In this document: one piece after another, positions 22,243-58,465 of the stretch
How positions within the stretch are numbered: the first letter of the stretch is position 1
Layout of the letters: the number at the start of each line of letters is the position of its first letter
DNA from: Segatella copri
GTDB taxonomy: Bacteria > Bacteroidota > Bacteroidia > Bacteroidales > Bacteroidaceae
Direction of reading: 5' to 3'
NCBI RefSeq assembly: GCF_019249795.2
Contig: NZ_CP156891.1
Span: 1,506,001-1,570,000, forward strand
Length of the DNA: 64,000 bases
Notes under the pieces: model-generated
The model's input: only the letters and a program-made list of their open reading frames with translations
Databases searched by the model: none
Told to the model about the DNA's origin: nothing
Translations under genes and position numbers: made by a program

Positions 22243-22437
22243 ATGATGGCTATACTGGGAATCATAGGCATATTGGTTATTGCTTTTGTCATCCTTGGCT
22301 TAATTGGCTGGGGTGTGCAAGCCTTGGGATTTATCGCCTCTTTCCTAGGTGAAGGCATCACAGGGTGCATCGGATGCTTCTGTAAATTCTTTTGGATCAT
22401 CCTTGTTGCATTCGTCTTAATATGTTTAATCTTTTAA
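22243..22437 (+). CDS. Small membrane protein, paralogue of the one opening module 4
   Basis: 64 residues, nearly all hydrophobic, forming two membrane helices around a glycine/cysteine-rich hinge. LGEGITGCIGCF and KFFWIIL are shared with the 63-residue protein at 28771-28962, as is the preceding GWG-Q-LGF motif. The first ATG at 22243 is followed directly by another; either could be used. In module 4 the homologue comes first in the intact system, so this is likely a membrane anchor or sensor of the same kind of system. Function is unknown. Confidence 0.7.
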   Translation: MMAILGIIGILVIAFVILGLIGWGVQALGFIASFLGEGITGCIGCFCKFFWIILVAFVLICLIF

Positions 22438-22448
22438 ACTGAGGTTAT

Positions 22449-22850
22449 ATGAAAATAAATATTTTTAAAACTACCACCATCATAGATAGAGAAAACGCTT
22501 CTAAGTATATTCATAGGGACGAAGCAAAACTTCCCTCAAGTATCATAGACATTCAAGAAAGAGCATTCTTTGGATGCTTCGATTTGAAAAATGTCAATCT
22601 TTCAGAATGTAACAGACTGTCAGTAATTGGCAACAATGCATTTGGAGTTTGCACTTCACTGAAAGAATTAAAATTCCCAAAAGGGATTACAAAAATAGAG
22701 GGAAATGCTTTCAAGTCTTGTATAAATTTAGAGAAAATAGCATCGGACAACTCTGGAATGAAATTTGGGAGAAATATCATGTTTCGCTCAACTGGGCTTT
22801 CAGCCATTATTTCAACTATCTCTCCATCTTCACGGTGGAAGACATCATGA
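22449..22850 (+). pseudogene. Truncated BspA-type leucine-rich-repeat gene
   Basis: 133 residues with three LRR_5 (BspA-like) units: IIDIQERAFFGCFDLKNVNL, LSVIGNNAFGVCTSLKELKF and ITKIEGNAFKSCINLEKI. The frame then degenerates into serine-rich sequence. From about 22780 a different frame looks coding (FTVEDIMKIKPENFEMSIEI, ending at 22897), so a deletion joined two unrelated coding pieces. The full-length counterpart in module 4 is the 444-residue LRR protein at 35983. Confidence 0.6.
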
Positions 22851-22919
22851 AAATCAAGCCCGAAAACTTCGAGATGAGTATTGAAATATCACTTTAACAA
22901 ACAAAGGAAAGGGAATAAT

Positions 22920-23417
22920 ATGGCAGCAAAAATGTCTTTATGCACTATCAGTTATAACTACGAGCATTACGCAGGTATCGATGTGGAAAAACTGTCCAAC
23001 ATTATCAATGAGTATGTCAAAAAGGAGTTTGCAGATTTCAATCCGCAGGTCTCTGAGCCTGGCTCTGACATGGAAATGCCAGACCATGTGGATATGCTGC
23101 TCTGCAAGAAGGATGGCAGCATCTTCTATGAAAGCGACATTCTGCGCCGTGCCGTCAACATTCCGCATGATTGTCAAATGGGTGGATTAGTATTGGAAAT
23201 CTTTATCCAGAACTGCGATGGCACGAGATACAAAAAAAGACATGCATATCCCAAGCCTTGGTGTAACCATAAAGCTAACGGCAAGTCGGACATGAGAAAA
23301 CTGAAAATTCATAAAACTATCAGCAAAAGGAATCTTAACAATCAAGAAGGCAAAGACTCTGAAGGCATCAGAATACCTGAACTTAGACCCAAGATTGACC
23401 TTCACTTCTTAAGATAA
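22920..23417 (+). CDS. Hypothetical protein, module 1 copy of the 39623 gene
   Basis: The start at 22920 (MAAKMSLCTISY) is chosen over an upstream ATG because it aligns with the paralogue start (MTNKMSLCIIKY). The 165-residue soluble protein has an N-terminal part that differs from the paralogue, while everything from LCKKDGSIFYESDILRRAV onward is nearly identical. The C-terminus is shorter (IDLHFLR versus IDFHDFLRQLSHDIRKI). It is followed 7 nt later by the 342-residue gene. No family or function was recognised. Confidence 0.65.
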   Translation: MAAKMSLCTISYNYEHYAGIDVEKLSNIINEYVKKEFADFNPQVSEPGSDMEMPDHVDMLLCKKDGSIFYESDILRRAVNIPHDCQMGGLVLEIFIQNCDGTRYKKRHAYPKPWCNHKANGKSDMRKLKIHKTISKRNLNNQEGKDSEGIRIPELRPKIDLHFLR

Positions 23418-24511
23418 CCATCCCATGACATACGAAGAATTCAAGCAATTGGCTGAACATCCACAGCATCGGGATGTTCCTGCCATCTTCAAGCTCGAAG
23501 TATTAGAAACAGAAGAGCTGGAGGAGAAAAAGCGTTCACATTATCCGAAATATAAGGTGAACACCTATTGTCCGCAAGCCTTCACCACAACTTTGGAGGA
23601 GGCAGAGAGACTGATGCACCAGGATGTCCTTTACCGCAAGAAGATGAAGGAGGAAGACGACTATCCGCTGGATACCTTCTGCTATTATATCTCGGAGATT
23701 CCAATGGGACTGTTGCACTACGACCGCGAATGTCTTTCGGAAAGGATGTATGATGGGGAAGGAAAACTGATCGACCAGTCTTACTGCTGTTCGCGTTTCA
23801 GCATTTACTATCCCGGAGTCTGCGATTTGCCTGCATACAACCGTCATCCTGACGAGACCTTCCGAGGCAGAAACGCAGAACAGATTAGATTCCAGAAAGG
23901 TGACATCGTGGAAGTATATCGTGGCGATGAGGTGAAACTTGCCATCGTTGTCGGAACTCCGCTTACCACCGAATGGATCTGGGAGAGAAACCAGGCTGCC
24001 AAGGATAAAAGGGGATTGGATGAACTGCCATACGATGAAACGGATGACAGCTATACCGTGATAGATGGTCCCGGCTACGAATACCACGACCACGTTCCGT
24101 CGCTGTATGTCTTCGCCCCTCACTATCATGTGCCGCTCTATCTTCAGAGACGATTCAAGGGGTATTTGGAAAAGGCTGAGAAAAAGCAGAAAGAAGAGGA
24201 GGAGAAAGACAGGATCTTCCGCCAGGCTCACGATTGCAGCTTCAGCAACAAGGAACAGATAGAGAAGTCAGAAAAGTGCGGCTGTTTCTTCTGCGGCGAA
24301 ATCTTCTCGCCATCCGAAATCACGGATTACCTTCCTGATGAGCCGCCTACAGCCGAATGTCCCTTCTGCCATACCGACTCCGTAATAGGTGATGCCTCCG
24401 GCTTCCCTATCACCAAGAATTTCTTAAAGAAAATGAAGAAGAGATGGTTCTAGGCGATTTTTCAACGTTTTTCACCGACCTGCCCCCTATCTCATGGGGG
24501 CAGTATCAGTT
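23098..24511 (+). repeat. 1.4-kb direct repeat, left copy
   Basis: Nearly identical to 39801-41217. It covers the 3' two thirds of the 165-residue gene, the whole 342-residue gene and part of boundary repeat b. Identity begins sharply at TGCTCTGCAAGAAGGATGG and ends inside the repeat at CAGTATCAGTT. Confidence 0.9.
23425..24453 (+). CDS. Hypothetical protein with C-terminal zinc-binding domain (module 1 copy)
   Basis: A 342-residue soluble protein nearly identical to the one at 40131. Residues 1-255 are an acidic, tyrosine-rich region of unknown fold. A charged helix (EKAEKKQKEEEEKDRIF) leads to a C-terminal domain with CGCFFCGEIFSPSEI and ECPFCHTDSVIGDASGFPIT, four or more cysteines suited to zinc. 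This tail is a recognisable domain of many bacterial cytosolic proteins of unknown role. It is the last gene of module 1 and is followed by repeat b. Confidence 0.75.
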   Translation: MTYEEFKQLAEHPQHRDVPAIFKLEVLETEELEEKKRSHYPKYKVNTYCPQAFTTTLEEAERLMHQDVLYRKKMKEEDDYPLDTFCYYISEIPMGLLHYDRECLSERMYDGEGKLIDQSYCCSRFSIYYPGVCDLPAYNRHPDETFRGRNAEQIRFQKGDIVEVYRGDEVKLAIVVGTPLTTEWIWERNQAAKDKRGLDELPYDETDDSYTVIDGPGYEYHDHVPSLYVFAPHYHVPLYLQRRFKGYLEKAEKKQKEEEEKDRIFRQAHDCSFSNKEQIEKSEKCGCFFCGEIFSPSEITDYLPDEPPTAECPFCHTDSVIGDASGFPITKNFLKKMKKRWF

Positions 24512-27742: not shown

Positions 27743-27970
27743 ATGAATACATTAGCAATAAACGAGCCTCAATTGTTGGTAACAGTATCAGATCCAGCAA
27801 TGCTGACAAAATTGAAGAACGCTATCAAAATGCTGAATGGCGTTAGTTCTATTTCTGTCATGAAACCAAAGAAAACAGATCTTGAACTTGCCGAAGAAGA
27901 CAAGGAGAAAGGCAGAGTTACCCATTGGAATTCTGTTGATGAAATGTTTGATACTATTTTAGGAGAATAA
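27743..27970 (+). CDS. Type II antitoxin partner of a YafQ-family toxin
   Basis: A 75-residue acidic protein encoded directly before a YafQ-type toxin, with its stop overlapping the toxin start by one base (TAATG). The N-terminal half (LLVTVSDPAMLTKLKNAIKML) could form a small beta-alpha DNA-binding fold. The C-terminal half (DLELAEEDKEKGRVTHWNS) is the sort of flexible segment that wraps a RelE-fold toxin. The family is not a clear RelB/DinJ match; the role rests on gene order. Confidence 0.75.
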   Translation: MNTLAINEPQLLVTVSDPAMLTKLKNAIKMLNGVSSISVMKPKKTDLELAEEDKEKGRVTHWNSVDEMFDTILGE

Positions 27971-28257
27971 TGTATAAACTTGATACTACTAAGAGATTTG
28001 ACAAAGCTTTAAAGCTTTGCAAAAAGCGCGGCTATCCCATAGAAGACCTACGAAAAGCCATAGCCATTCTGGCAGAAAAAGGATGCCTGCCAAAAGAATA
28101 CAAGCCACATATTCTTCACGGAAACCACGAAGGCGAATGGGAGGCTCATATAAATCCAGACTGGCTGCTGGTATGGGAACAGAATGATGAGGAGTTAACA
28201 CTCCTCATGCTTACTACAGACACACATTCCGACGTTTTTAGTAAAACAAGAAGATAA
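27970..28257 (+). CDS. YafQ-family mRNA interferase toxin
   Basis: A 95-residue RelE-fold toxin. YafQ-type features are LDTTKRFDKALKLCKKRGY, LPKEYKPHILHGNHEGEWEAHI and the terminal LMLTTDTHSDVF, with the catalytic-type histidines of YafQ (H in HILHGNH, H in TDTHSD) visible. In known members the toxin cuts mRNA on the ribosome. It overlaps the antitoxin gene by one base and is followed by a 14-bp terminator. It lies between repeats d and e and may stabilise the island. Confidence 0.9.
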   Translation: MYKLDTTKRFDKALKLCKKRGYPIEDLRKAIAILAEKGCLPKEYKPHILHGNHEGEWEAHINPDWLLVWEQNDEELTLLMLTTDTHSDVFSKTRR

Positions 28258-28340: not shown

Positions 28341-28384
28341 CTCCTATCTCATGGGGGCAGTATCAGTTATGAAAACGGACATTA
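28341..28384 (+). repeat. Island boundary repeat, copy e
   Basis: Core reads TCCTATCTCATGGGGGCAG and continues into the same G run plus TAGG as copy a. It lies between the toxin-antitoxin pair and module 4. Confidence 0.88.
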
Positions 28385-28679
28385 AGGGGGGGGTAGGCTT
28401 CCACATTCCATAAGAGAAAAGGGAGGGGAATTGCGGCAAGCATTCCCCTATATATAATAAGGTGTAAGCTCAGAAGTACAATCGGGAAAGGAAGAGGTAA
28501 ACAGGCTTCAGCGGGAGAAAGACACACCTCTTCAACTACGTCTCCCAAAAGTTTAAGAAATGCTAAAAAGTCCCTTTTGGGGGCATTTTTCACTAAAAAA
28601 ATACATTTTTTTGGCCAATTGATCCAAATCAAGGCAAATTTGAACCAATTTGAACCAATTCAGTTTCATTTATTTTATA
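28385..28679. other. Leader region of module 4 without genes
   Basis: After repeat e it holds an eight-base G run, motif copy 4 (28450-28472), a purine-rich stretch and a short tandem repeat AATTTGAACC (28638-28657). No credible gene is seen. The -7 box at 28680 closes it. Confidence 0.55.
28450..28472 (+). promoter_or_regulatory. TATATAATAAGGTRTARG motif copy 4
   Basis: It lies about 65 nt after repeat e, the same relation as copy 3 has to repeat a, followed by GCTCAGAAG. Confidence 0.45.
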
Positions 28680-28687
28680 TATCTTTG
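28680..28687 (+). promoter_or_regulatory. -7 box of module 4
   Basis: TATCTTTG on the plus strand, 83 nt before the small membrane protein start. It is the likely single promoter for the genes 28771-38566. Confidence 0.65.
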
Positions 28688-28770
28688 CACCCAAATATGA
28701 GTTAGTTATCAACGTAAATTGATATTCTTAACGATTGCATAAAGTAAATGAAATTATTCTTATAGGGGAT

Positions 28771-28962
28771 ATGACTATACTACTTATCATATTAATAGGA
28801 ATCGGAATATTTGTACTTCTCGGCATTCTAGGCTGGGGAATACAGCTTTTGGGATTTCTCGGAGGACTCTTAGGTGAAGGCATCACTGGATGCATAGGAT
28901 GCTTCATCAAGTTCTTTTGGGTGATTCTGCTAATAGCTATATTTATTGCGCTGATACAATAA
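28771..28962 (+). CDS. Small membrane protein opening the SPFH-caspase module
   Basis: 63 residues from ATG 28771, chosen over an upstream ATG because it aligns with the paralogue at 22243. There are two hydrophobic helices, with GWGIQLLGFLGGLLGEGITG and CIGCF between them and a KFFWVIL continuation. The conserved glycine/cysteine hinge suggests a hairpin in the membrane. It comes first in the operon, 32 nt before the zinc-ribbon/SPFH gene. No named family was recognised; it may anchor the SPFH proteins. Confidence 0.75.
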   Translation: MTILLIILIGIGIFVLLGILGWGIQLLGFLGGLLGEGITGCIGCFIKFFWVILLIAIFIALIQ

Positions 28963-28994
28963 CCAGTCATTTAATCTTAAAAACAATAACCATT

Positions 28995-31787
28995 ATGACA
29001 TATTGCAAGAAATGCGGCGCAATGCTGCAACCGGTAATGAAATTCTGTACGAAGTGTGGACAACCTATTGACTTGCAACCACAGGCTCCAACCCAGCCAC
29101 AAGGAGTTAGCAAGCCTCAACGTCCTCAACCACTGAAAGCTATGGCTCCTCAACAGCCTATGAAGCCTCAACCTATGAGACCTCAAGCACCAGGTATGCC
29201 CCCAAAACCGATGCAGACTCAGCGCCCAGTAATGCCTCAGGCTCTACAGACTCCACAAGCCAGCAAGGGTATGTTCACCAATGCCGTTCGCTCTGTAGCA
29301 AACGCCATGATTGGTGGTGCACTCAATCGCCAGATTGCAGAAGAACAGAGAAGAGCCGTTAACCAGCAAGCTACTGAAAGCCAGTCGGAAATCCGTGATG
29401 CCAGAAATGCACAGCAGCAGGCTGAACAGGCACAGATTGCAGCCGAAAGAGAAGCTGAACGTAGCCGCGACCGCCGCAGTATGGAAGCTGTGGATGGTGT
29501 TGACGTGGTAAGAGGCAGAACCATCTGGAATATCCAACCAGGAGAAATCGCCCGCAAGATTAGCGAACGGGAACTCGACGAAATAGAAAAACTGAAAGGT
29601 ATCATCGTTCAGGAAGGTTGCACCGCCATCATTTTTGCCAATGGTGAGCTGGTTTCAACCCTCTCAGCAGGTGCATACCTCTTTTATAAGTCTGTAGAAG
29701 AAGAGCAGGCTGCTATCAAGAATGCGGTAGAAAAGGCTGAGAAAGATATGGCTGAAGCCGAAAAGCGTGAACGAGACCGCAAGCGCCAGGCTGAGCCTAC
29801 CTTCCGCCAGCTCGGTATCGTAGGAGAAGTAGGCCGTGGCTTCAACTGGCTCGGTCGCATCATCTTCGGCGAAAAGAAAGGTGAACAGAAAGAAAAAGCC
29901 AAGAAGCGCCAACTGGATTATGCCCGCATCTTAGCCCGCATCACCCAGGCTCCTATCCTGTCGGTCTATATCGTCAGCAACCGTTTCATCACCCTCACCT
30001 TTGGTGGAGCAATGAACGAGAATGGCGAACTTGCCTTTCAGCCATACACCATTCCGATGGGCATCCATGATGTGCAGATTGGAGTATCTCTCCAGATGAG
30101 CATCAGCGATATTCATACCTTCGCCACCAATTATCTTACCGACCGCAACAGCGTAACAACTAGAGAATTACAGCAGTTGCTCAATGGTACCATAGAAACC
30201 CTGTTGCGCCAGGAACTCCGCAACCAGAACTACGAGTCTGCCGGACTGACTGCAGAAACAGTAAATGTACTGAAAGAGAAAATCCGCCAGACGATCAACC
30301 AACAGGTATTCGGCATAGAATGCACTCAGGTTCTGAATATCACCGACAGCAACCAGGACTTTGAGCGTTTCCGTCAGGTAGAACGCCAGCTCTATAACAC
30401 AGAGAAGGAACTCGACTTCATGCACCGCACCGGAGAGTTCCGAAACCGAATGGAAGTTGAGGCCAACTCCCAGCAGATTTCTTCTGCACAAAACGCCGAG
30501 GATTTGCGCCATGCCCTCCAGGGCATCAACAAAGACCAGTTGCTCCACGATGATGAGTTGGAGGAATTCGTCCAGATGCTCGAAAGTCAGAAGCGCATCC
30601 GCCAGGCTAAGACCCAGGAAGAGGAGTTCGAAGCCCTGGAAGACCTCCGCAAGAACCGTCTGGTCAAGCAGGAGGAAATGGAAGTGCTCGAAGATGAACT
30701 TGCACACAAGAAGATTCCTCGTGAGGAAATCACGGAAATCATGCGCATCCAGAGCCAGCAGAACATCGACACAGCCCGTCTCAAGGCAGAATGGGCACTC
30801 GATGATTCCCGTACCGACCACGACTGGGAACGTGAAGATCTGGAACGCCGCCGCAACTGGGGCATCGAAGATGAAGAGCGTGAACGCCAGTGGATGCTGG
30901 AAGAAAAGGAATACAACCGCGACTTCAACCGCAAGGCGAAGGAGGATGATTACGACTTCCAGCAGATGATGCGTCAACGCGAACTGGATAAGGAAGACCA
31001 CCTCCTGGCACGCAACGAGAAACTGGAAGACGACCGCCTTGCCTATGAGCGCAACCGCCAGGAAAAAATGGACGATGACCAGTTGGAAGCCAACCGCCAC
31101 CAGCGTCAGATGGACAAGCTGCAGCAGATGGCTCAGATGCAGGCACAGCTCGACCAGCAGAAATATCAGCACGAAGAGAACGTAGCCACCATTCAGAGCA
31201 ATGAGCAGATGAATCGTGACAACCATTTCGCCAATATGACCGCCGAACAGATTCGTGCCGCACAACTCTCCCACCTCACCGGAGATGCACAGGTAGCTAT
31301 GGCAAACGCCTATAACGGCGAGAAGGAAGCCGAAAACCTGCGACAGACTGCAGCAGAAAAGGAAGCAATGATGCAGCAGATGCTACAGATGCAACATGAG
31401 AACAGCAATGCCCAGATGGAAGCCATGATGAAGATGGCCGGCATGATAAAAGATACAGCCACCGGCATCAGCGGCGCCCAGCAAAGCCAGCAGCAACAGC
31501 GCATCAACCAGCTGGAAGAGGAAAACCGACGCCAACAGGAGCGAGTAGATCATACCCAGGATGTGGCTATGAACAACATCTCGCAAGTAAGCACTGCTGC
31601 CGCCAACAATCTGAACGCCTTCAATGGCGGACTCGGTGGAAATACAGCAGGAAGCCAAGCAGCTCCACAACAGGCAGCTCCTCAGCAGGAATTGATAGAA
31701 TGCCAGTGCTACAACTGTGGACACACCATCCACATTGCACCAGGCACTCCAAACTGTCCAGACTGTGGCGCACCTTTCCAATGGTAA
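28995..31787 (+). CDS. Zinc-ribbon, SPFH-like, long coiled-coil scaffold protein
   Basis: 930 residues from ATG 28995; the frame extends 35 codons upstream, but only this start gives an intact N-terminal zinc ribbon (CKKCGAML...FCTKCGQ). Order: zinc ribbon (about 3-25), a Pro/Gln-rich linker (to about 95), charged helices, an SPFH/band-7-like region (about 315-470, with SVYIVSNRFITLTFGGAMNE and ISDIHTFATNYL), a long charged coiled coil (about 470-850), and a C-terminal zinc ribbon (CQCYNCGH...CPDCGAPFQW). There is no membrane helix. SPFH proteins assemble on membranes, so this is probably the scaffold of the module. Confidence 0.75.
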   Translation: MTYCKKCGAMLQPVMKFCTKCGQPIDLQPQAPTQPQGVSKPQRPQPLKAMAPQQPMKPQPMRPQAPGMPPKPMQTQRPVMPQALQTPQASKGMFTNAVRSVANAMIGGALNRQIAEEQRRAVNQQATESQSEIRDARNAQQQAEQAQIAAEREAERSRDRRSMEAVDGVDVVRGRTIWNIQPGEIARKISERELDEIEKLKGIIVQEGCTAIIFANGELVSTLSAGAYLFYKSVEEEQAAIKNAVEKAEKDMAEAEKRERDRKRQAEPTFRQLGIVGEVGRGFNWLGRIIFGEKKGEQKEKAKKRQLDYARILARITQAPILSVYIVSNRFITLTFGGAMNENGELAFQPYTIPMGIHDVQIGVSLQMSISDIHTFATNYLTDRNSVTTRELQQLLNGTIETLLRQELRNQNYESAGLTAETVNVLKEKIRQTINQQVFGIECTQVLNITDSNQDFERFRQVERQLYNTEKELDFMHRTGEFRNRMEVEANSQQISSAQNAEDLRHALQGINKDQLLHDDELEEFVQMLESQKRIRQAKTQEEEFEALEDLRKNRLVKQEEMEVLEDELAHKKIPREEITEIMRIQSQQNIDTARLKAEWALDDSRTDHDWEREDLERRRNWGIEDEERERQWMLEEKEYNRDFNRKAKEDDYDFQQMMRQRELDKEDHLLARNEKLEDDRLAYERNRQEKMDDDQLEANRHQRQMDKLQQMAQMQAQLDQQKYQHEENVATIQSNEQMNRDNHFANMTAEQIRAAQLSHLTGDAQVAMANAYNGEKEAENLRQTAAEKEAMMQQMLQMQHENSNAQMEAMMKMAGMIKDTATGISGAQQSQQQQRINQLEEENRRQQERVDHTQDVAMNNISQVSTAAANNLNAFNGGLGGNTAGSQAAPQQAAPQQELIECQCYNCGHTIHIAPGTPNCPDCGAPFQW

Positions 31788-31839
31788 GCCCTCTCCAGAA
31801 AATGCAACAAGAAGTCTAAACATATAAAGTAATCAGACT

Positions 31840-34659
31840 ATGAGCGATATTAAACTTGATGGTGATGCGGCTGTGGTAGGCGGAATCCATTCCGACTCCC
31901 ACAATACGCAAAACAACTATAACACCTCAACAACAACCCATACCACCAACAACAGTACGGTTAACAACCAGACTGTATATGAGGCACAGAAGACTCAGAC
32001 TGAGATCTATCAGCAGAATGAGACTCTCTTTCTGCAGGCTGTGCAGGAACGACTGGAGGATGGCAAGTTGGATAATCAGAAGTTGGCAGAACTCAACCAG
32101 TTGAGCATCCAATGGCATATTGCTCCCCTAAGAGCCAACCAGATCATAGATCAGGTACGTCAGAACATCCATATCCTGCAAGGCAGCAAGGGTAACGAAT
32201 TCCTGGCAGAGCAGATTCTGACCGAGGTCTTCAATGCCATCCAGACCAACCATACCGACATTCTGAAACGCAAGTTCAACAGTCTGGAGCAGTTGTCACG
32301 TGTGATGACGAATGATAACAACATCCAGTTCTACTATCATCTGTTGCTTGCCTCGATGTACCCCGACAAGTGCGCCCTTGCCTTCTTCGGTTCCCGTACC
32401 GATAACTACTGGCAACTCTTCTGGACTCATGTAGCGTTCATCAAGACCGGCAATATCGACAATGCCACCGTGCTTCTGCCAAGAATGGGCGGTTTCGGTT
32501 GTCCGCAAGGCGACATCGCCCTACTGATGGCTCTTGATAATCTTGCCGACTACCACAAGAATGGAAAGCAGGATTACTACATGCAGCAGACCATCCAGTA
32601 TCTCGACCAGGCCGTGCAAAACGGAATGAGTGAACCGCTAAGTGCCCTATGGTATGCCGTAAAGGAGATGTTGGAGGATAAGCCTCAGCCAGAAGAATGG
32701 TATCAGTTCTATTGCGACACAACCCTTTCGGAATTCATCCCGAAGGAGAAGAGCAAGATGGCTGTACCACCACAGATGCCTACACCTCCTCCGATGCCAA
32801 AGTTTAATGCCCAGAACGTGAAGCTCAATCAGATGAGAGGCTTCAATCCTCTGCAGGCAGCCAACAATATGGGACTGGGAAGCGTCAATGCGATCAGTCA
32901 GCAGCCTCAAATGGCAAGTATGCCGGGCAGTACAACTCCTCCCCCTATGCCGGGAGCCTCATCGGTTCCTCCTATGCCGGGACAAAGCAAGGCGGCTCCA
33001 CAGCCGGAAGCCGTGCAGATGGCATCAGAAGCAAGAACAGCCGATGAACCAATCGACCAGCCCGACCCCTTGGAAGACCACTACGGCATCATCCTGACAG
33101 ATGGCAATGCACTGGCTAGAAAATACGGTTGCTCCATCCAGGAAGTATATGATGTCTTCAACGACTTCATACAGAATGCCTACGACCAGCAGATGTACTG
33201 GACATTTCTCGACATCTCGCAATATGGACTGGATTCCACCCACGAAACTCCATCCTGGATAGAATGCAATGAAGCAGTATCCCGCTGCATCGCAGACAAC
33301 AACCTGACAGCTGGTCCCGACCTACACCTATTTATAATAGGAGGTGACGATGTGATTCCTATCCCTCGCGTCGAAGACCCATGGCCGTATGGCGGCGAGC
33401 GAATCCCTACAGATACCTGCTATGCCTTCGAAGGCACCTATATCGTAGATTTGCTGGATAGTCGCGATTCAGACTTCACCGTAGGTTGCGCCCGCAACAA
33501 TGTGGCTCGTCTGCCTTTGGAAGACGGTCAGCTCGATACGGATATCCGAAGCGACATCGGTGCCTACTTCAACATCAGTGGAATGTATGGCGGCGGTATT
33601 CCTGTTGGCAATGTTCTGATGATCAGCAACCGCGACTGGATTCCAGCCAGCTGCACGATGACCCAGCACCTGCCGCTTCTTTACAATACCGACGATCCTG
33701 AGCTGATCCGCAACGGAATGTATATCAGTCCGAAGCTGCTGACCGAAGATTCGGAAAGCCTCAGCATCTATTGCAAGTCTCTGGACAAGGCAGATATGCT
33801 GATGTTCAATCTTCATGGTGCCGATGCAGAGGGTATGTGCGGATTCTATAGTGAGGATGAAGCATTCAATCCTTCGCTCCTCAACCAAGGCAGGGCAAGA
33901 GTCTTCAATACCGTGGCTTGTTTCGGAGCCCGATATGCCGGTTACAAACGAAACGACTCCATGTTGCTCAGCGCCCTCTACGGAGGTGGCGTATTGCTCT
34001 ATACCGGTTCGCTCATTCCTGTTCCGATGTTCTCTAATGAGGAAACGGATGAAGCCCGCCAACTTCTGTTGAATCCGGGCACAGGCAGCGAGGTGCTGAT
34101 GCGCCTCTATCCGCTCTATCAGTTCAAGGGTATGACGGGCGGAAAGGCGATGCTCCAGGCTAAGTGCGATTACTTCAACATGTGCCGACATGTAGAGGAT
34201 GACTGTTTCTCTATGAGCACCGCCCTGATGTTCTGTCTCTACGGCAACCCGATGCTCCATGTCCGTCGCAGAGAATATGTGGTAGAATCTGCACTGCAGA
34301 ATGATGCGATGCCACCAGCTCCAATCAAGGCCGACGGCTCTCCGCTCAAGAAGACCATGCGACAGCGCCTGCTGCAGAAGGATAAGAGCAACCAGTCTCT
34401 CATCGACCAGATTCGTGGTTATGTGGATGAGAATCTCAATGCTATCCGAAACATGGTAGAGCAGCATCTGTACCAGCAGCTGGGCTTGAAACCGGAAATG
34501 CTGGATAGCATCGACCAGGTAAGCCGACCTACCATCGACGGCAATTACGAAACGGGATATTCATTCAACTATCACGACGCAAACCGCCAATATGGAGCAG
34601 ACACCTTCGTAGAAGTAGATGCCCAGGGCAAGACGAAGCGAATCTATACAACAAAATAA
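31840..34659 (+). CDS. Caspase-fold (C25/CHAT-like) protease
   Basis: A 939-residue soluble protein. The N-terminus is Thr/Asn-rich (HSDSHNTQNNYNTSTTTHTT), then a helical module (LEDGKLDNQKLAELNQLSIQ) of the type repeated in two other operon proteins, helical repeats to about residue 305, a proline-rich linker (TPPPMPGASSVPPMPGQ), and a C-terminal caspase-like domain from about residue 415. The dyad is visible: His659 in MFNLHGADAEG and Cys694 in NTVACFGARYAGY, each after a hydrophobic strand, followed by LYGGGVLLYTGS as in gingipain-like C25 and CHAT proteases. It is probably the effector or processing enzyme of the module. The trigger and target are unknown. Confidence 0.78.
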   Translation: MSDIKLDGDAAVVGGIHSDSHNTQNNYNTSTTTHTTNNSTVNNQTVYEAQKTQTEIYQQNETLFLQAVQERLEDGKLDNQKLAELNQLSIQWHIAPLRANQIIDQVRQNIHILQGSKGNEFLAEQILTEVFNAIQTNHTDILKRKFNSLEQLSRVMTNDNNIQFYYHLLLASMYPDKCALAFFGSRTDNYWQLFWTHVAFIKTGNIDNATVLLPRMGGFGCPQGDIALLMALDNLADYHKNGKQDYYMQQTIQYLDQAVQNGMSEPLSALWYAVKEMLEDKPQPEEWYQFYCDTTLSEFIPKEKSKMAVPPQMPTPPPMPKFNAQNVKLNQMRGFNPLQAANNMGLGSVNAISQQPQMASMPGSTTPPPMPGASSVPPMPGQSKAAPQPEAVQMASEARTADEPIDQPDPLEDHYGIILTDGNALARKYGCSIQEVYDVFNDFIQNAYDQQMYWTFLDISQYGLDSTHETPSWIECNEAVSRCIADNNLTAGPDLHLFIIGGDDVIPIPRVEDPWPYGGERIPTDTCYAFEGTYIVDLLDSRDSDFTVGCARNNVARLPLEDGQLDTDIRSDIGAYFNISGMYGGGIPVGNVLMISNRDWIPASCTMTQHLPLLYNTDDPELIRNGMYISPKLLTEDSESLSIYCKSLDKADMLMFNLHGADAEGMCGFYSEDEAFNPSLLNQGRARVFNTVACFGARYAGYKRNDSMLLSALYGGGVLLYTGSLIPVPMFSNEETDEARQLLLNPGTGSEVLMRLYPLYQFKGMTGGKAMLQAKCDYFNMCRHVEDDCFSMSTALMFCLYGNPMLHVRRREYVVESALQNDAMPPAPIKADGSPLKKTMRQRLLQKDKSNQSLIDQIRGYVDENLNAIRNMVEQHLYQQLGLKPEMLDSIDQVSRPTIDGNYETGYSFNYHDANRQYGADTFVEVDAQGKTKRIYTTK

Positions 34660-34726
34660 TCTGTCCCCTACAAAGGGATTCTATAGTAAATAACAAAAAT
34701 AATAACAATCATAAAAACTGAAACAT

Positions 34727-35929
34727 ATGGGATTTTTTGGTTTTAAATCTTCTAAGGAAGTAGAAGAAGAGAAAAGACAGGCTGCCGAGGAAGCAGCGAG
34801 AAGAGTGGAACAGAACAACCTGACCAACCTCAGCAACCTGAGCAAGGGAAGTCAGCTGAATTTCGCCATCCCTTATTTTGATGTCTTCGACCCACGTCTG
34901 CAAGATTATGGCGTACCAGTATCTGTACATGGTGCCGTAGTATATGCTATCGAGGACATGGATCTCTTCCATAGTGTGAACCGCAATGAGGGTTACAGCG
35001 ACGAGACTTTCAAGAACAAGCTTCGTGGCCAGCTCACCAAGTTCATCAAGAGTGTAGTTAGCAATGCCCCTTCTGACGCTCAGATTCCTGCAGTTCAGAT
35101 TGAGCGCAAGATTTTTGAGATTAGCGAACTCATCCAGCAGCGTGTTACTCCACAGGTGGAAAAGCTTTTCGGCATCACCATCCGCAGTCTCGACATCACA
35201 GGCATCAACGTAGATAAGGAGAGCCGTGGTTACCGTGAACTCAAAGCCCTCACTGCCGACCTGGAGAAGGAGCGTATGATGGCTCAGCATAATGCCCAGA
35301 TTTCCAACTTCAACCTCAACAACGACCTTCAGCAGGATATGCTCAAGAAGCAGTCTGAGCTGAATCTCGATGCCATGGGCAGAAAGCAGGAACTCGACCT
35401 TGGCGGTCAGGAGGAGTTACAGCGCATGAACTTGGAGAACCAACGTGAAACCATGCGTATTCAGCGTGAGGAGATGCAGCGTGCTTCTCGTCTCCAGACA
35501 GAGCAGACCTTTATGGGTGCTCATCAGGCAAACCTCAATGCTGGTGTTCTCAACAATGCCACAGATAATGGCATCAATGCCTTCCGCCAGCAGACTATGG
35601 GTGGTATGAACAACATGGGTCAGATGGGCGGAGCTCCTCAGATGCCAGGTCAGAAAGGCATGGGTGGTGCACCTCAGATGCCGGGAATGGGTGCTGCTAT
35701 TCCTCAGGTACAGTATTATATTGGCATCAATGGCCAGCAGTATGGTCCATGCGATTGGAACAAGCTCCAGCAGCTCGTTCAGCAGGGTCAGCTCACCCAG
35801 CAGTCATACGTTTGGAAGAATGGCATGGCGCAGTGGGAGTTTGCCGGCAATGTAGCAGAACTCGCTCCATTGTTCCAAGGCACCGCCCCACAGATGCCGG
35901 GAATGCCTCCTACTATGCCGGGGATGTAA
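34727..35929 (+). CDS. SPFH (YdjI-like) protein with C-terminal GYF_2 domain
   Basis: 400 residues. Residues about 35-200 form an SPFH domain of the YdjI / virion-core-like kind (FDVFDPRLQDYGVPVSVHGA, RVTPQVEKLFGITIRSLDI). Helical coiled coil covers about 200-270, a Gly/Met/Pro linker with repeated APQMPG follows, and a GYF_2 domain (about 325-385: YYIGINGQQYGPCDWNKLQQ, YVWKNGMAQWEFA) precedes a second PQMPG tail. GYF domains bind proline-rich peptides, and such stretches occur here and in the protease and scaffold proteins. It is probably a membrane-surface scaffold. Confidence 0.82.
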   Translation: MGFFGFKSSKEVEEEKRQAAEEAARRVEQNNLTNLSNLSKGSQLNFAIPYFDVFDPRLQDYGVPVSVHGAVVYAIEDMDLFHSVNRNEGYSDETFKNKLRGQLTKFIKSVVSNAPSDAQIPAVQIERKIFEISELIQQRVTPQVEKLFGITIRSLDITGINVDKESRGYRELKALTADLEKERMMAQHNAQISNFNLNNDLQQDMLKKQSELNLDAMGRKQELDLGGQEELQRMNLENQRETMRIQREEMQRASRLQTEQTFMGAHQANLNAGVLNNATDNGINAFRQQTMGGMNNMGQMGGAPQMPGQKGMGGAPQMPGMGAAIPQVQYYIGINGQQYGPCDWNKLQQLVQQGQLTQQSYVWKNGMAQWEFAGNVAELAPLFQGTAPQMPGMPPTMPGM

Positions 35930-35982
35930 TTTCCCGGCAGCTATAATACAAACAAAAGTAAGAACATTAAATTTTTGATAAT

Positions 35983-37317
35983 ATGGGATTATTCAAAAAA
36001 TTAGTCGGTGATATCGCAAAGACAGTAGGTGAAAGCCTGGAAGAAGTTTCAAACGAAGCCAAAAAGAGTTTCCAAGAGGCTCGCGAAGAGGTAAGAAAGA
36101 ACATCCAGGAAGCAAAGCTGAATCAATCCAACTATGATGATGACGATGATGATGACAATTGGGATTATCCATTAACAAAGTTATCAGATGATGACGATGA
36201 TATACGAATCCAGTTAGGCACTTTTAAAAATGGCGTTTTAACCATCAACGAGGGACATACAACTCTCGGCGAAGATGCCTTGGAGGGTTATAAGAAAATT
36301 AGAAAAGTTGTCTTCCCTTCAACCCTTAGAGAAATTGATGGATGTTTTTTCAGTGAGCATGGACATGAGGACTATCTTGAAGAGGTAGATTTCTCAAAGG
36401 TTAAATTATTGAAGGAAATTCCAGACTGTCTGTTTGAAAATTGTAAGAGACTTCAAGAAATAAACTTTCCTGAAGGAGTAAAAATAATAGATAGTGAAGT
36501 GTTCGATAGATGCACCAACCTCCGCAAGATAACATTTCCAAGTACCCTAAAGTCGCTCCAAAGCACAACATATAAATGTAAGAATATCGAAGAATTGGAT
36601 TTGTCCAAGGTTCATCTGTTGGAAGAAATTCCAGATAATTTCATTGGTGAAAATTGCAAGATTGAGACACTTGTCATTCCTGTAGGAGTAAAAATTGTGG
36701 GTGATGAATTTGCCTCAAGCAAGAGCATTAGAGAGGTATATGTACCTTACACTGTTGAAGAAATCGGCACTCTCAATGATGACGAATACGCACCTGATGT
36801 GTATATCTACACCAATAAACTGACGGATATAGAAAGTCTATGTGCCAATATTAAGACTCTGTATGTACCAGAAGAGTTATATGTCTACTACGCCGAGCTT
36901 CTAAAAGATGTTGACGATACAGAAGTTCGTCTTCGTAAGATGCCTGCAGACAAGTTGGATTTCTATGGGACACCTGTTCCATCACTTACCGAAGTGGACG
37001 AAGAAGACAATTCTGCTCCTCAGATGCCAGAACAGGATCAAGACATAGAGACACCTATTGTAGAGGAAGAAACTGAGGAGTTAGAGGACGAAACCAAGGA
37101 TATCCAGGACGAAACCGAAGAGATTCCAACAATACAGAAGTCTCCTGGCAACCTATTCTCTGATGGTCTTGAGGAGCTCATCAATTCTGTAGCAGAAAGC
37201 GATGAGCTGACAGACAAAAAGAAGGAGATTGTCTTACGCCGTGCTGTCAAGGAGGGAGAAGATCCTGATGAGGTAGAAATGGTGCTTGAGGCAAGATTCT
37301 ACGAGAAGCATAATTAA
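35983..37317 (+). CDS. BspA-type leucine-rich-repeat protein with C-terminal helical module
   Basis: 444 residues. The N-terminal amphipathic helix (MGLFKKLVGDIAKTVGESL) could lie on a membrane. A run of Asp encoded by GAT/GAC repeats follows (about residues 52-75). Residues about 90-310 hold LRR_5 units (YKKIRKVVFPSTLREIDG, CKRLQEINFPEGVKIID, CTNLRKITFPSTLKSL), a recognition fold. After an acidic linker, the C-terminus (about 390-444) has the helical module SDELTDKKKEIVLRRAVKEG, as in the next gene. There is no signal peptide, so it is intracellular, unlike surface BspA proteins. It may be the sensor of the module. Confidence 0.8.
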   Translation: MGLFKKLVGDIAKTVGESLEEVSNEAKKSFQEAREEVRKNIQEAKLNQSNYDDDDDDDNWDYPLTKLSDDDDDIRIQLGTFKNGVLTINEGHTTLGEDALEGYKKIRKVVFPSTLREIDGCFFSEHGHEDYLEEVDFSKVKLLKEIPDCLFENCKRLQEINFPEGVKIIDSEVFDRCTNLRKITFPSTLKSLQSTTYKCKNIEELDLSKVHLLEEIPDNFIGENCKIETLVIPVGVKIVGDEFASSKSIREVYVPYTVEEIGTLNDDEYAPDVYIYTNKLTDIESLCANIKTLYVPEELYVYYAELLKDVDDTEVRLRKMPADKLDFYGTPVPSLTEVDEEDNSAPQMPEQDQDIETPIVEEETEELEDETKDIQDETEEIPTIQKSPGNLFSDGLEELINSVAESDELTDKKKEIVLRRAVKEGEDPDEVEMVLEARFYEKHN

Positions 37318-37357
37318 TACATATAACTGAAAATAATAACAAATAGAATTTCCTACG

Positions 37358-38566
37358 ATGTATAACGAACAAATTGAATCACTTATCACTGCAGCTTTGG
37401 CAGATGGTGTATTGACTGACAAAGAGAAGAATCTTCTCTTCAAGAAGGCCGAGGCTATGGGCATCGACCGCGACGAGTTTGAACTGGTACTTGAGGGTCG
37501 TCTTGCTAAACGCAAGAAAGAAATGGAAGCACAGGCTCCTCAGGCAGCTAAGCCTGCTAAGAAGAAAGGTGCAATTCCACAGGAGCTTGATGACCTCATC
37601 AAAGAGTACCTTACCGACGGCATCATCTCTGCCAAGGAGCGTCAGGTGCTTTTGAATAAAGCACAGGCTCTGGGTTTGAATGTTGACGAGGTTGATCTGT
37701 ACATTGATGCACAGCAGCAAAAGGCAGATCAGGCTGTAGCAGCTGCTGTGAACAAGCGTCGTGGCAAGACCTGCCCTTACTGCGGTAGCTCTATTCCAGA
37801 ACTGACCGACAAGTGTCCTAACTGTGGTGGCAACATCACCCCTGAGGCAAGTAAGGAGTTGGAGGAGATTATCGAGCATCTTGAGTCTGCTTTGGTAAAC
37901 TTCAAGTCTGGAGAAGATGTTGATAAGAGCAAGGCTGAGGTGGAGCGCTATGCTCGCAAAGCAAGAATGCACTATGGTAACAATTCTAAGATACAGCGCT
38001 TGCTTGATGAGGTTGAGGCTGAATCAGAAGCAGCAGAGACAGAAGCCAAAAAGAATGCGAAAAAGAAATTTTGGCTAAATATTATCGAAAAAAATAAAAA
38101 GTTTGTTTTAATTGCCATTGCTGCCATTCCACTATTTGGATTTATATGGTATGAAGCTACCGCTGATGCAAGAAGAGAACAAGCTGAGCAAGAAGAAAGA
38201 CAAGAAGAAAGACAAGCTTATCAAGAAGAAAAAGCAGCAAAAAATGCTAAAGATCTCTCATATGTTCAAAATACAGCTAAAGAGGTTAATGACTTTCTTG
38301 ATAAAGGGCAAGTTGACAAGGCTGCCAACGCACTTACGATGTGTGAGGCTTCAGGTTTAGGCAACCCTCTACAGGATAATGATCAAGCAACTTCTTTGTA
38401 TAAATCATTGGTTGCAAATGTTGTAGATGCATATCTTGATAAAGGGAAAAAGAAAAAAGCGCAAAATTTAGTTATTTCTTGTAGCTCAAAGTTCGATTTC
38501 GGTAAAAGTGGACTAGCTGAATTATTCGAAAAATTGGGATGTGATGGTAATTATGAGTTTAAGTAA
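37358..38566 (+). CDS. Zinc-ribbon membrane protein with two helical TerB-like modules
   Basis: 402 residues. Two copies of a helical module open the protein (LADGVLTDKEKNLLFKKAEA at about 15-34 and YLTDGIISAKERQVLLNKAQ at about 85-104). A zinc ribbon (CPYCGSS...CPNCGG, about 140-160), a charged helical linker, one membrane helix (FVLIAIAAIPLFGFIWY, about 248-264), an Arg/Glu-rich coiled coil and a helical C-terminal domain follow. The module and zinc ribbon would be cytosolic. It closes the contiguous core of the operon and is followed by a strong hairpin. Confidence 0.75.
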   Translation: MYNEQIESLITAALADGVLTDKEKNLLFKKAEAMGIDRDEFELVLEGRLAKRKKEMEAQAPQAAKPAKKKGAIPQELDDLIKEYLTDGIISAKERQVLLNKAQALGLNVDEVDLYIDAQQQKADQAVAAAVNKRRGKTCPYCGSSIPELTDKCPNCGGNITPEASKELEEIIEHLESALVNFKSGEDVDKSKAEVERYARKARMHYGNNSKIQRLLDEVEAESEAAETEAKKNAKKKFWLNIIEKNKKFVLIAIAAIPLFGFIWYEATADARREQAEQEERQEERQAYQEEKAAKNAKDLSYVQNTAKEVNDFLDKGQVDKAANALTMCEASGLGNPLQDNDQATSLYKSLVANVVDAYLDKGKKKKAQNLVISCSSKFDFGKSGLAELFEKLGCDGNYEFK

Positions 38567-38587
38567 ATTGAAAACATAGTATATATA

Positions 38588-38628
38588 TTAGACGAATTTA
38601 CACATATGTTATGTGTAAATTCGTCTAA
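38588..38628 (+). terminator. 18-bp perfect hairpin after the core of module 4
   Basis: Arms TTAGACGAATTTACACAT (38588-38605) and its exact complement (38611-38628) with a 5-nt loop. No long T run follows, so it could be a terminator, a processing site or a partial attenuator before the GIY-YIG gene. Confidence 0.6.
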
Positions 38629-38668
38629 AGATAATTAATTGTTACAAAATAATATTACATCATAGATT

Positions 38669-39487
38669 ATGATACTACTTAATGATATTCTCAGACTTCC
38701 GGATATTAAAAACGTTAAAGTTAGATTTAATTTGAACTTCGGAACCAAAAGACCAGCTATTGATTATTTTACAGACCAAACGGAAGAAAGCAAGCAACAT
38801 ATGCTTGACGGTCAATACTGGAACTATGCAAGAAAAAGCAATTTCTCTAATGGAAACATTACCTTAGGTTTTGTCCCTATCCCTCAAAAACAAGACTGTT
38901 GGTTACTATTCCATATAGGAAAGATTGTTCAAGATCTTGGTATTCAAAATGGAGTTGGATATGAATATGAAGAGTTGGATGAATACAAAGAATACATCGG
39001 CAGAATTGTTATCCGCTTCAAAAATCATAGTCAAAATCTAATCAGAATAGGAGAAAATGTATTGCCAGAGTGCATAGTTGAAGAGATTCTGCCCAATGTT
39101 TACAACAACGACTATTTTCCTGGATATTCCAACGTGAATGTTTCATGGCTATCTCTTAAGAATCTCATCACAAAAGATAGTTGGCGTTCTGCTCTTGAAA
39201 ATCAAAAAGGAGTGTATCTGTTGGTAGATTCAAATACAGGAAAACAATATGTTGGTTCAGCGTATGGTGAAGATATGATTCTCGGTAGATGGGAAACATA
39301 CATTCGTACATGCCATGGAGGAAATAAACTTCTAAAGGAATTAGGTACAGACTATATCAAGAATAATTTCTATTTCACAATTCTCGAAACATTCAATAAG
39401 GATACTGATGACCAAATCATCATTGATAGGGAATCACATTGGAAAGATGTATTGTTTACAAGAAAATTCGGATATAACAAGAACTAA
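38669..39487 (+). CDS. GIY-YIG family nuclease
   Basis: A 272-residue soluble protein. The C-terminal GIY-YIG domain starts near residue 183: GVYLLVDSNTGKQYVGSAYG carries the two signature motifs as GVY and YVG, followed by the arginine in ILGRWETYI, the His in CHGGNKLL and the metal-ligand Glu in IIDRESHWKD. The N-terminal 175 residues are a domain that I do not recognise but which is typical of stand-alone bacterial GIY-YIG proteins. It could cut DNA as an effector, or be a separate gene carried after the core. A hairpin separates it from the core. Confidence 0.85.
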   Translation: MILLNDILRLPDIKNVKVRFNLNFGTKRPAIDYFTDQTEESKQHMLDGQYWNYARKSNFSNGNITLGFVPIPQKQDCWLLFHIGKIVQDLGIQNGVGYEYEELDEYKEYIGRIVIRFKNHSQNLIRIGENVLPECIVEEILPNVYNNDYFPGYSNVNVSWLSLKNLITKDSWRSALENQKGVYLLVDSNTGKQYVGSAYGEDMILGRWETYIRTCHGGNKLLKELGTDYIKNNFYFTILETFNKDTDDQIIIDRESHWKDVLFTRKFGYNKN

Positions 39488-39622
39488 AAGGTACGATATT
39501 TTTACAACAGCATCATTCAATAATCAAGCTCCAATACTTTTTTCAAAATATTGGCGTTTTTTTTTGAAATTTTCCCTTCATATTACTATATTATAAAGGT
39601 ATAACCAAAAAGCAAGAATAAG

Positions 39623-40150
39623 ATGACAAATAAAATGTCTTTATGTATTATCAAATACACCTATACTCGATATGTAGGGGTGGATATCGAAAAATATACT
39701 CGGGGACTATTCGAGTATGTGAAGGAAGAGTTTGGGGAGTTTCAACCACAAATGTCAGAGCCTGGAACTATACCTGATATGCCAGACTATCTGGACATCG
39801 TGCTCTGCAAGAAGGATGGCAGCATCTTCTACGAAAGCGACATTCTGCGCCGTGCCGTCAACATTCCGCATGATTGTCAAATGGATGGATTAGTATTGGA
39901 AATCTTTATCCAGAACTGCGATGGCACGAGATACAAAAAAAGACATGCATATCCCAAGCCTTGGGAGAACCATAAAGCTAACGGCAAGTCGGGCATGAGA
40001 AAACTGAAAATTCATAAAACTATCAGCAAAAGGAATCTTAACAATCAAGAAGGCAAAGACTCTGAAGGCATCAGAATACCTGAACTTAGACCACAGATTG
40101 ACTTTCACGATTTTTTAAGACAATTATCCCATGACATACGAAAAATTTAA
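39623..40150 (+). CDS. Hypothetical protein, module 4 copy
   Basis: A 175-residue soluble protein, paralogue of the one at 22920. Its N-terminal 60 residues diverge (VGVDIEKYTRGLFEYVKEEF), while the remainder from LCKKDGSIFYESDILRRAV is nearly identical. A short Lys/Asn-rich stretch (IHKTISKRNLNNQEGKD) looks disordered. Its end overlaps the 342-residue gene by 20 bases, indicating translational coupling. No family was recognised. Confidence 0.7.
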   Translation: MTNKMSLCIIKYTYTRYVGVDIEKYTRGLFEYVKEEFGEFQPQMSEPGTIPDMPDYLDIVLCKKDGSIFYESDILRRAVNIPHDCQMDGLVLEIFIQNCDGTRYKKRHAYPKPWENHKANGKSGMRKLKIHKTISKRNLNNQEGKDSEGIRIPELRPQIDFHDFLRQLSHDIRKI

Positions 40151-41217
40151 GCAATTGGCTGAACATCCACAGCATCGGGATGTTCCTGCCATCTTCAAGC
40201 TCGAAGTTTTAGAAACGGAAGAGCTGGAGGAGAAGAAACGTTCACATTATCCGAAATATAAGGTGAACACCTATTGTCCGCAAGCCTTCACCACAACTTT
40301 GGAGGAGGCAGAGAGACTGATGCACCAGGATGTCCTTTACCGCAAGAAGATGAAGGAGGAAGACGACTATCCGCTAGATACCTTCTGCTATTATATCTCG
40401 GAGATTCCAATGGGACTGTTGCACTACGACCGCGAATGTCTTTCTGAAAGAGTGTATGACGGTGAGGGAAAACTGATCGACCGGTCTTACTGCTGTTCGC
40501 GTTTCAGCATTTACTATCCCGGAGTCTGCGATTTGCCTGCATACGACCGTCATCCTGACGAGACCTTCCGAGGCAGAAACGCAGAACAGATTAGATTCCA
40601 GAAAGGTGACATCGTGGAAGTATATCGTGGCAATGAGGTGAAACTTGCCATCGTTGTCGGTACTCCGCTTACCACCGAATGGATCTGGGAGAGAAACCAG
40701 GCTGCCAAGGATAAAAGGGGATTGGATGAACTGCCATACGATGAAACTGACGACAGCTATACCGTGATAGATGGTCCTGGTTACGAGTACCACGACCATG
40801 TTCCGTCGCTGTATGTCTTCGACCCTCACTATCATGTGCCGCTCTATCTTCAGAGACGATTCAAGGGGTATCTGGAAAAGGCTGAGAAAAAGCAGAAAGA
40901 AGAGGAGGAGAAAGACAGGATCTTCCGCCAGGCTCACGATTGCTGCTTCAGCAACAAGGAACAAATAGAGAAGTCTGAAAAGTGCGGCTGTTTCTTCTGC
41001 GGCGAAATCTTCTCGCCATCCGAAATCACGGATTACCTCCCTGATGAGCCGCCTACAGCCGAATGTCCCTTCTGTTATACCGACTCCGTAATAGGTGATG
41101 CCTCCGGCTTCCCTATCACCAAGGATTTCTTGAAGAAAATGAGGAAGAGATATTTCTAGGCGATTTTTCAACGTTTTTCACCGACCTGCCCCCTATCTCA
41201 TGGGGGCAGTATCAGTT
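39801..41217 (+). repeat. 1.4-kb direct repeat, right copy
   Basis: Same orientation as 23098-24511, about 16.7 kb away. The copies differ by a few substitutions and a 3-nt indel at the gene junction. Identity ends within boundary repeat f. Confidence 0.9.
40131..41159 (+). CDS. Hypothetical protein with C-terminal zinc-binding domain (module 4 copy)
   Basis: 342 residues, almost identical to the product of 23425-24453. The body is acidic and aromatic-rich (CYYISEIPMGLLHYDRECL, QIRFQKGDIVEVYRGNEVKL) and gives no family match. A charged helix leads to the C-terminal CGCFFCGEIFSPSEI...ECPFCYTDSVIGD domain, probably zinc-binding. It is last in module 4 and directly followed by repeat f, just as its twin ends module 1 before repeat b. 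Confidence 0.75.
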   Translation: MTYEKFKQLAEHPQHRDVPAIFKLEVLETEELEEKKRSHYPKYKVNTYCPQAFTTTLEEAERLMHQDVLYRKKMKEEDDYPLDTFCYYISEIPMGLLHYDRECLSERVYDGEGKLIDRSYCCSRFSIYYPGVCDLPAYDRHPDETFRGRNAEQIRFQKGDIVEVYRGNEVKLAIVVGTPLTTEWIWERNQAAKDKRGLDELPYDETDDSYTVIDGPGYEYHDHVPSLYVFDPHYHVPLYLQRRFKGYLEKAEKKQKEEEEKDRIFRQAHDCCFSNKEQIEKSEKCGCFFCGEIFSPSEITDYLPDEPPTAECPFCYTDSVIGDASGFPITKDFLKKMRKRYF

Positions 41218-55118: not shown

Positions 55119-55214
55119 ATTTTTTCTATTCATACAACCAACCAATCGTAAAGTCATCCCTATCTGGCAATAGTGCTGTACCGATTACACAACTTCACTT
55201 TTTAACGACATCAC

Positions 55215-58453: not shown

Positions 58454-58465
58454 ATCCTTATTTAT

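Follow-up and report, generated by a model that had tools for sequence, protein, structure and literature searches.

Gingipain-type proteases are known mainly from oral bacteria, as secreted enzymes, and SPFH assemblies associate with proteases in HflK/C-FtsH and in the prohibitin-protease assemblies. In Bacillus subtilis, the SPFH protein YdjI ties PspA to the membrane (PMC8581546). Here we describe a 64,000-nt stretch of Segatella copri DNA (NZ_CP156891.1, positions 1,506,001-1,570,000), hereafter the window, in which a gingipain-fold protease gene adjoins the gene of a probable SPFH protein. All coordinates are window positions; g1 to g9 are window genes, C25 is the gingipain-type protease gene (g3 here), and L and G numbers denote fetched loci and genomes. 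A first, sequence-only reading had seen a nine-gene module in this stretch. Our analysis instead defines a core of six genes, g1-g6, and we put at about evens the proposal that they encode a membrane-scaffolded, sensor-triggered C25 protease system, which in one of its two operon classes, class II, would probably serve defence.

The g3 protease and its partner g2

The product of g3 (31840-34659, + strand, as are all nine genes; 939 aa) consists of a helical, TPR-like N-terminal region, a proline-rich linker and a cysteine protease of the gingipain fold. Its caspase-clan fold, already suspected from the letters alone, has gingipains (peptidase family C25, clan CD) as best structural matches. 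The caspase-like dyad predicted at the outset is intact: His659 (codon 33814-33816) and Cys694 (33919-33921) lie within the motifs FNLHG and TVACFGA, and both are invariant in 27 of 27 aligned sequences, of which 26 are distinct and one is that of the window. In the g3 homologues of L028 and L021, Pfam PF01364 scores above its cut-off. Thus g3 has a C25 cysteine-protease fold with an intact His/Cys dyad, predicted to be catalytic. Gingipains as nearest structures might suggest a secreted protease for nutrition or virulence with unrelated neighbours. However, g3 has a polar, N/T-rich start with no transmembrane-like stretch (by hydropathy; no signal-peptide program was used), many of its relatives open with zinc ribbons, and adjacency to g2 is common. 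We regarded this explanation as already disfavoured and give it very little credence.

The preceding gene, g2 (28995-31787; 930 aa), had been read as a zinc-ribbon, SPFH and coiled-coil protein. It has zinc ribbons at both ends (Zn_ribbon_3, 29 bits), and in 17 sequences the four N-terminal cysteines are invariant and the four C-terminal ones at least 90% conserved. The SPFH assignment proved weaker than claimed. Band_7_1 is sub-threshold in Pfam (E 0.012, 15.7 bits against a cut-off of 24) and reaches E <= 0.1 in 1 of 17 family members. Comparison with a 5-row SPFH profile by hhalign gave 4%, and trimmed alignments gave 0.6% and 3.2% (controls 0.8% and 0.1%). With a fuller SPFH alignment of 21 rows, hhalign returned 84% for the entire alignment and 53% for the middle part (0.2% and 8% in the controls), and hmmsearch with the 21-row profile found 1 of 17 family members. 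We therefore describe g2 as a probable SPFH protein with a long charged region that is a coiled coil by eye.

Among 301 genomes of the window's family, C25 is present in 11 and a full-length g2 relative in 10, all within those 11 (hypergeometric 7.6e-18, uncorrected for kinship); the g2 search returned 20 matches, the other 10 covering zinc ribbons only. In the sole C25 genome without g2, G094, the contig stops 42 bp after C25. At the 26 C25 loci fetched besides the window, a g2 relative lies on the same strand within 5.3 kb in 19 and within 200 bp in 16 of these, and upstream extension of L087 revealed another about 11.6 kb before C25, heading the same gene run. At four of the remaining six loci (L019, L020, L027, L084) the contig runs out within 680 bp on one side, and the other two, L081 and L088, lack a g2 relative. 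Pairwise distances of 19 C25/g2 pairs correlate at 0.944, a value that none of 9999 permutations equalled and to which genome kinship contributes. The two trees have the same deep split with 99-100% support, the positions of L023 and L105 being less sure given a long-branch warning. Together these data show that the C25 gene and g2 are an evolutionary pair, with g2 the closest partner gene of C25. A chance neighbourhood of unrelated genes would suit g7-g9, which are separable neighbours. It was already disfavoured for g2 and g3, and the co-occurrence, the agreeing trees and the TerB-like and zinc-ribbon parts in common make it highly improbable.

The distribution of C25 is patchy, with copies in 7 of 30 sampled genera of the window's family and one in another family of the order (G371). 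A profile search across the order that included the zinc ribbons matched 51 of 295 genomes. Since every match listed except that of G371 fell in profile positions 1-81, the zinc-ribbon part, the profile was rebuilt without it (A2). Phylum-wide, A2 matched 1 of 392 genomes, G841 (E 1.1e-14), where the 19.9 kb fetched contain no g2-like gene; two borderline genomes, G129 and G247 (E about 9e-4), were not recovered by profile.

The six-gene core and two operon classes

The core is formed by six same-strand genes with intergenic gaps of 32-67 bp, present at the coordinates first assigned to them. A small membrane protein with two hydrophobic stretches by hydropathy is encoded by g1 (28771-28962; the reading frame opens with TTG at 28735, and ATG 28771 is the likely start by eye); its relative in L001 (Leyella stercorea) is 65% identical over 48 aa. 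The g4 product (34727-35929; 400 aa) joins an SPFH domain (Band_7_1, PF13421, 24.6 bits, just above the cut-off of 24) to a C-terminal GYF domain (GYF_2, 62.6 bits). That of g5 (35983-37317; 444 aa) is a leucine-rich repeat (LRR) protein with BspA-type repeats (LRR_5, 87.4 bits), a TerB-like C-terminal tail and no transmembrane-like stretch. Finally, g6 (37358-38566; 402 aa) encodes two TerB-like helical repeats, one transmembrane-like stretch and a zinc ribbon whose match is sub-threshold. These assignments uphold the tiny membrane protein, the SPFH-GYF protein and the cytosolic LRR protein of the sequence-only reading; its zinc-ribbon membrane protein, g6, keeps the membrane stretch and has the ribbon at sub-threshold level. 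The single promoter it had placed before the genes did not appear in a sigma-70 scan of the + strand from 28200 to g1, although promoters of Bacteroidota fall outside the scope of that scan.

Between the window and L001, dN/dS is 0.043 for g2, 0.060 for g3 and 0.034 for g4, and these three genes are under strong purifying selection. About 70 repeat-region residues are missing from the L001 copy of g5, and pN is 0.24 for g5 and 0.23 for g6. The TerB-like tail of g5 is nearly unchanged, while the rest of g5 and g6 change much faster. In this one genome pair, the g5 pattern would be expected of a sensor that changes while its plug stays fixed, relaxed constraint being the alternative.

Parts of the core recur in other arrangements. 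At 20-41% identity, residues 1-300 of g3 can be aligned with the N-terminal parts of proteins that L021/L079, L022, L023, L087 and L104 encode in separate genes, and the all-helical residues 53-295 (31996-32724) are part of a separate gene in several relatives. In these tagged, sensor-like proteins the shared region is preceded by a zinc-ribbon-like Cys motif and an N/T-rich stretch, and the variable ends hold, by eye, a coiled coil, Sel1 repeats, further zinc ribbons or a transmembrane stretch. Five of them stand in tandem between g2 and C25 in G1000, and four in L104. A protein of L083 has a zinc-ribbon and N/T-rich start followed by Sel1-like and LRR-like repeats (by eye), and is 35% identical to g5 over a short stretch. 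As these parts are fused in the window and encoded separately elsewhere, we argue that they work together. A TerB-like hairpin, present in duplicate in g6, also occurs in the tail of g5 and in tagged proteins, as found with an iterated profile seeded from g5 and g6, whose E-values are thus optimistic. The profile did not list g3, which was placed by alignment with tagged proteins carrying the motif.

The C25 loci fall into two classes. Class II comprises 12 loci: the window, L001, L002 (Prevotella sp.), L019-L023, L079, L083, L084 and L087+L132. Seven of these were assigned by both trees and the others by higher identity to g3; L023, L020 and L084 are short contigs. Class II parts are SPFH-GYF, TerB-zinc-ribbon and LRR proteins, and several loci have g4-like, g6-like and LRR genes in varying order, the linkage of g1 and g4-g6 to C25 resting on fewer loci than that of g2 and g3. 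Neighbouring genes include PD-(D/E)XK or GIY-YIG genes and, in 6 of the 12 loci (L002, L020, L021, L079, L084, L087), a DUF4011 SF1 helicase gene, of a defence type, 81 bp-7.4 kb from C25. The L021 and L079 helicases are identical, with REase_MTES_1575 at the C-terminal end and a match to PADLOC PDC-S37 at 1.6e-304; that of L002 runs off the fetched DNA before this end, and the L023 and L083 sequences are truncated. In one genus, helicase matches at E <= 1e-50 came from 7 of 44 genomes, and the five copies with at least 65% identity are all in class II loci with C25.

In class I, an MltC-like transglycosylase, a zinc-ribbon C25, a g2 relative, a small protein and a zinc-ribbon/Sel1 protein with a transmembrane-like stretch are accompanied by an LpoB-like protein (weak match), DUF6175 and two LPP20 proteins. 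These families were assigned by a Pfam scan of the L028 genes, and the other loci, several with a partial set, were matched to L028 by BLAST. Class I also occurs in G371, where L061 (6983-18609) holds, in order, LPP20-like, MltC-like, zinc-ribbon C25, g2 relative, small protein and zinc-ribbon/Sel1-type membrane protein genes, and continues with LpoB-like, DUF6175-like and LPP20-like genes, an unnamed envelope operon in its own right.

This company lends substance to the chief competing explanation, in which both classes serve envelope-stress or peptidoglycan quality control: the SPFH scaffold would sense membrane or cell-wall damage and C25 would cleave envelope-related or regulatory proteins, as a phage-shock/YdjI counterpart with no phage link. 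The union of C25 and g2 with the transglycosylase, LpoB-like, DUF6175 and LPP20 genes speaks for it, as does the link that YdjI makes between PspA and the membrane (PMC8581546). However, class II loci gave no matches to the class I envelope genes; their neighbours are instead helicase, PD-(D/E)XK or GIY-YIG genes, a fast-changing LRR protein and sensor-like arrays, and g1-g9 hold no PspA domain. We would give this explanation roughly one chance in three, and prefer a division in which class I is probably a form for envelope surveillance and the most likely purpose of class II is defence against phages or mobile elements.

A variable locus in Segatella copri

Downstream of the core, and outside it, g7 (38669-39487) lies 102 bp after g6 in A+T-richer DNA and is followed by g8 and g9. 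The sequence-only reading had called g7 a GIY-YIG nuclease. This holds: the PADLOC UzuA model covers residues 38-272 of 272 (1.2e-54), and the Pfam GIY-YIG score is slightly under its cut-off (22.2 against 22.6 bits). No relative of g7 occurs at L001 or L002. Both g8 (39623-40150) and g9 (40131-41159; weak SH3-like match) encode hypothetical proteins with a second copy in the window at 22881-24453 (78% for g8, at 22920-23441; 97% for g9, at 23425-24450), and two g8-g9-like pairs stand at the equivalent locus of G001, a genome without C25. Because g7 has no relative in L001 or L002 and g8-g9 are duplicated elsewhere, we reject the nine-gene unit in favour of six. The g7 nuclease is an adjacent gene rather than a fixed member, and the DUF4011 helicase is the more regular nucleic-acid partner among relatives. 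The core set itself, which the sequence-only reading had expected to be conserved, was found in other genomes.

In G001, the nearest genome, the flanks are about 95-98% identical to those of the window, and other genes, none of them C25, lie between the equivalents of 20480 and 41241. The same AAA genes are present there. The replacement module (L118:1586-14578) encodes a protein kinase, a Sel1 protein, a PvuRts1I/SRA nuclease, TerB-zinc-ribbon, SPFH-GYF and GYF proteins and an ion channel; its TerB-zinc-ribbon protein is 33% identical to g6 and its SPFH-GYF protein 40% to g4 (Band_7_1, 92 bits). A locus-specific repeat of about 43 bp marks the borders. It stands just before the module (28343-28389, +) and, as a partial copy of 26 bp, just after g9 (41192-41217, +), and occurs at six window places in one orientation (20759, 24486, 26182, 27538, 28343 and, partial, 41192). 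The whole genome of G001 contains six copies, confined to 33 kb of this locus, and none was found in 19 other genomes of the genus at up to 3 mismatches. Lying at gene-cassette borders, the repeats look like a dedicated cassette-exchange array. From the replacement and the repeats we conclude that the module occupies a variable locus, which can hold a related SPFH-GYF module in its stead, and that genes of the g4 and g6 types are not bound to C25.

Such a locus could itself maintain a suicide or toxin module, an addiction-like cassette selected by exchange in which a cell-killing C25 is restrained by the scaffold. The repeat-bounded locus also holds a YafQ-type toxin gene, which is in keeping with this idea. 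We nevertheless think it improbable: the Pfam and NCBIfam matches of g1-g9 include no antitoxin family, C25 and g2 stay together across deep divergence, and no copy was seen on the plasmids or phages searched.

Several other genes of the window were noted. At 22243-24453, a second g1-like reading frame (22243-22437), an LRR fragment and the g8 and g9 copies make up a partial relative, or a remnant, of the module that lacks g2-g4. Between two boundary repeats, 27743-28257 holds a small reading frame and the YafQ-type toxin gene, probably a toxin-antitoxin pair. On the - strand, 56264-63643 encodes an SF1 helicase with a PIN domain beside a 1725-aa sacsin-domain protein, with two ADP-ribosylglycohydrolases next to them (54183-56120); all of these possibly form another conflict system.

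Proposed mechanism and comparison with known systems

These data allow us to propose how g1-g6 might work. The g2 and g4 proteins would form an SPFH assembly at the cytoplasmic side of the inner membrane, anchored by g1 and g6, on which zinc ribbons, TerB-like hairpins and GYF domains would dock the protease and sensors. The sensing component, g5 in the window and tagged proteins in relatives, would detect phage- or damage-derived material or membrane perturbation, and sensing would release or activate C25. The protease would then cleave a module partner or a host protein, and cleavage would stop growth or switch on an effector nuclease. The logic first inferred from the sequence, of a membrane scaffold, an LRR sensor and a protease, fits the module anatomy. 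A more specific and rather speculative form, which we hold to be somewhat unlikely, is an inflammasome-like hub: the membrane SPFH scaffold would use a shared tag (zinc ribbon, N/T-rich stretch, TerB-like hairpin, TPR-like region) to recruit a single gingipain-fold protease together with exchangeable LRR or Sel1 sensors, and the protease would cut tagged partners, releasing or activating nucleic-acid effectors such as the helicase-REase of relatives, with the protease-scaffold pair common to the envelope-surveillance operon.

Several observations weigh against a sensor-triggered, defensive C25 system. The class I context points to the envelope and not to phage defence. G135 has a class I operon without C25 (L103:6721-16042), and its C25 and g2 are on different contigs; the only C25 found in this genome is of class II type, on a contig other than that of the L103 operon. 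In G1000, the class I copy L081 has no g2. Neither the window nor the fetched L001, L019 and L022 DNA contains the helicase, g4- and g6-like genes occur without C25 in G001, and no copy was found in the viral contigs, plasmids or phages searched. Within the module, the SPFH assignment of g2 is only probable and the TPR-like match of the g3 N-terminal region is not decisive.

We found no named system with this gene set in PADLOC, in Pfam/NCBIfam scans or among the papers listed by a literature search that left most subscription papers outside, in line with the sequence-only reading. The exception is g7, which alone matches UzuA of Uzume; the core g1-g6 has no UzuA likeness. PADLOC returned 0 families up to E 0.1 for g1-g5, and g6 has two weak matches, PDC-S48 (1.1e-8, through its TerB-like part) and LmuB (7.6e-5). 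The YdjI/Psp modules resemble the window module in combining an SPFH protein with membrane partners; the protease, LRR and GYF parts are absent from the abstract on YdjI. No PspA/IM30 family is among the g1-g9 matches up to E 0.1, and by this test the module is not a Psp system.

In its proposed working the module is most like TPR-CHAT (Csx29 of type III-E CRISPR, Craspase), which joins a protease to a helical-repeat part, and like the SPFH-protease assemblies. The window protease is instead of C25 rather than CHAT type, and SPFH proteins take the place of the RNA-guided effector. The matches of the 29 window proteins scanned include no Cas family, Cas7-11/gRAMP among them, and by this test the module is not type III-E CRISPR (arrays were not searched for). 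Csx30 is the substrate in Craspase; tagged proteins might by analogy be substrates here.

The likeness to HflK/C-FtsH and the prohibitin-protease assemblies lies in an SPFH assembly with a protease, whereas the window has a caspase-clan cysteine protease instead of an AAA metalloprotease, and sensor-like proteins in the gene cluster. With the C25 gingipains, g3 shares its fold and clan. Unlike them, the g3 branch has no visible secretion-type N-terminus (as judged with no signal-peptide program), carries zinc-ribbon or TPR-like N-terminal parts and usually adjoins a zinc-ribbon, probably SPFH, gene. If our proposal is true, a C25 branch that shows no secretion signal and is linked to a probable SPFH scaffold in two operon types would put caspase-clan proteases in a new setting and would connect envelope surveillance with immunity in a testable way, in a compact gene set with its predicted catalytic residues identified. 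Each part belongs to a known superfamily, and the novelty lies in the system, which may represent a new kind of immune or envelope-stress system in a Prevotella-group gut bacterium.

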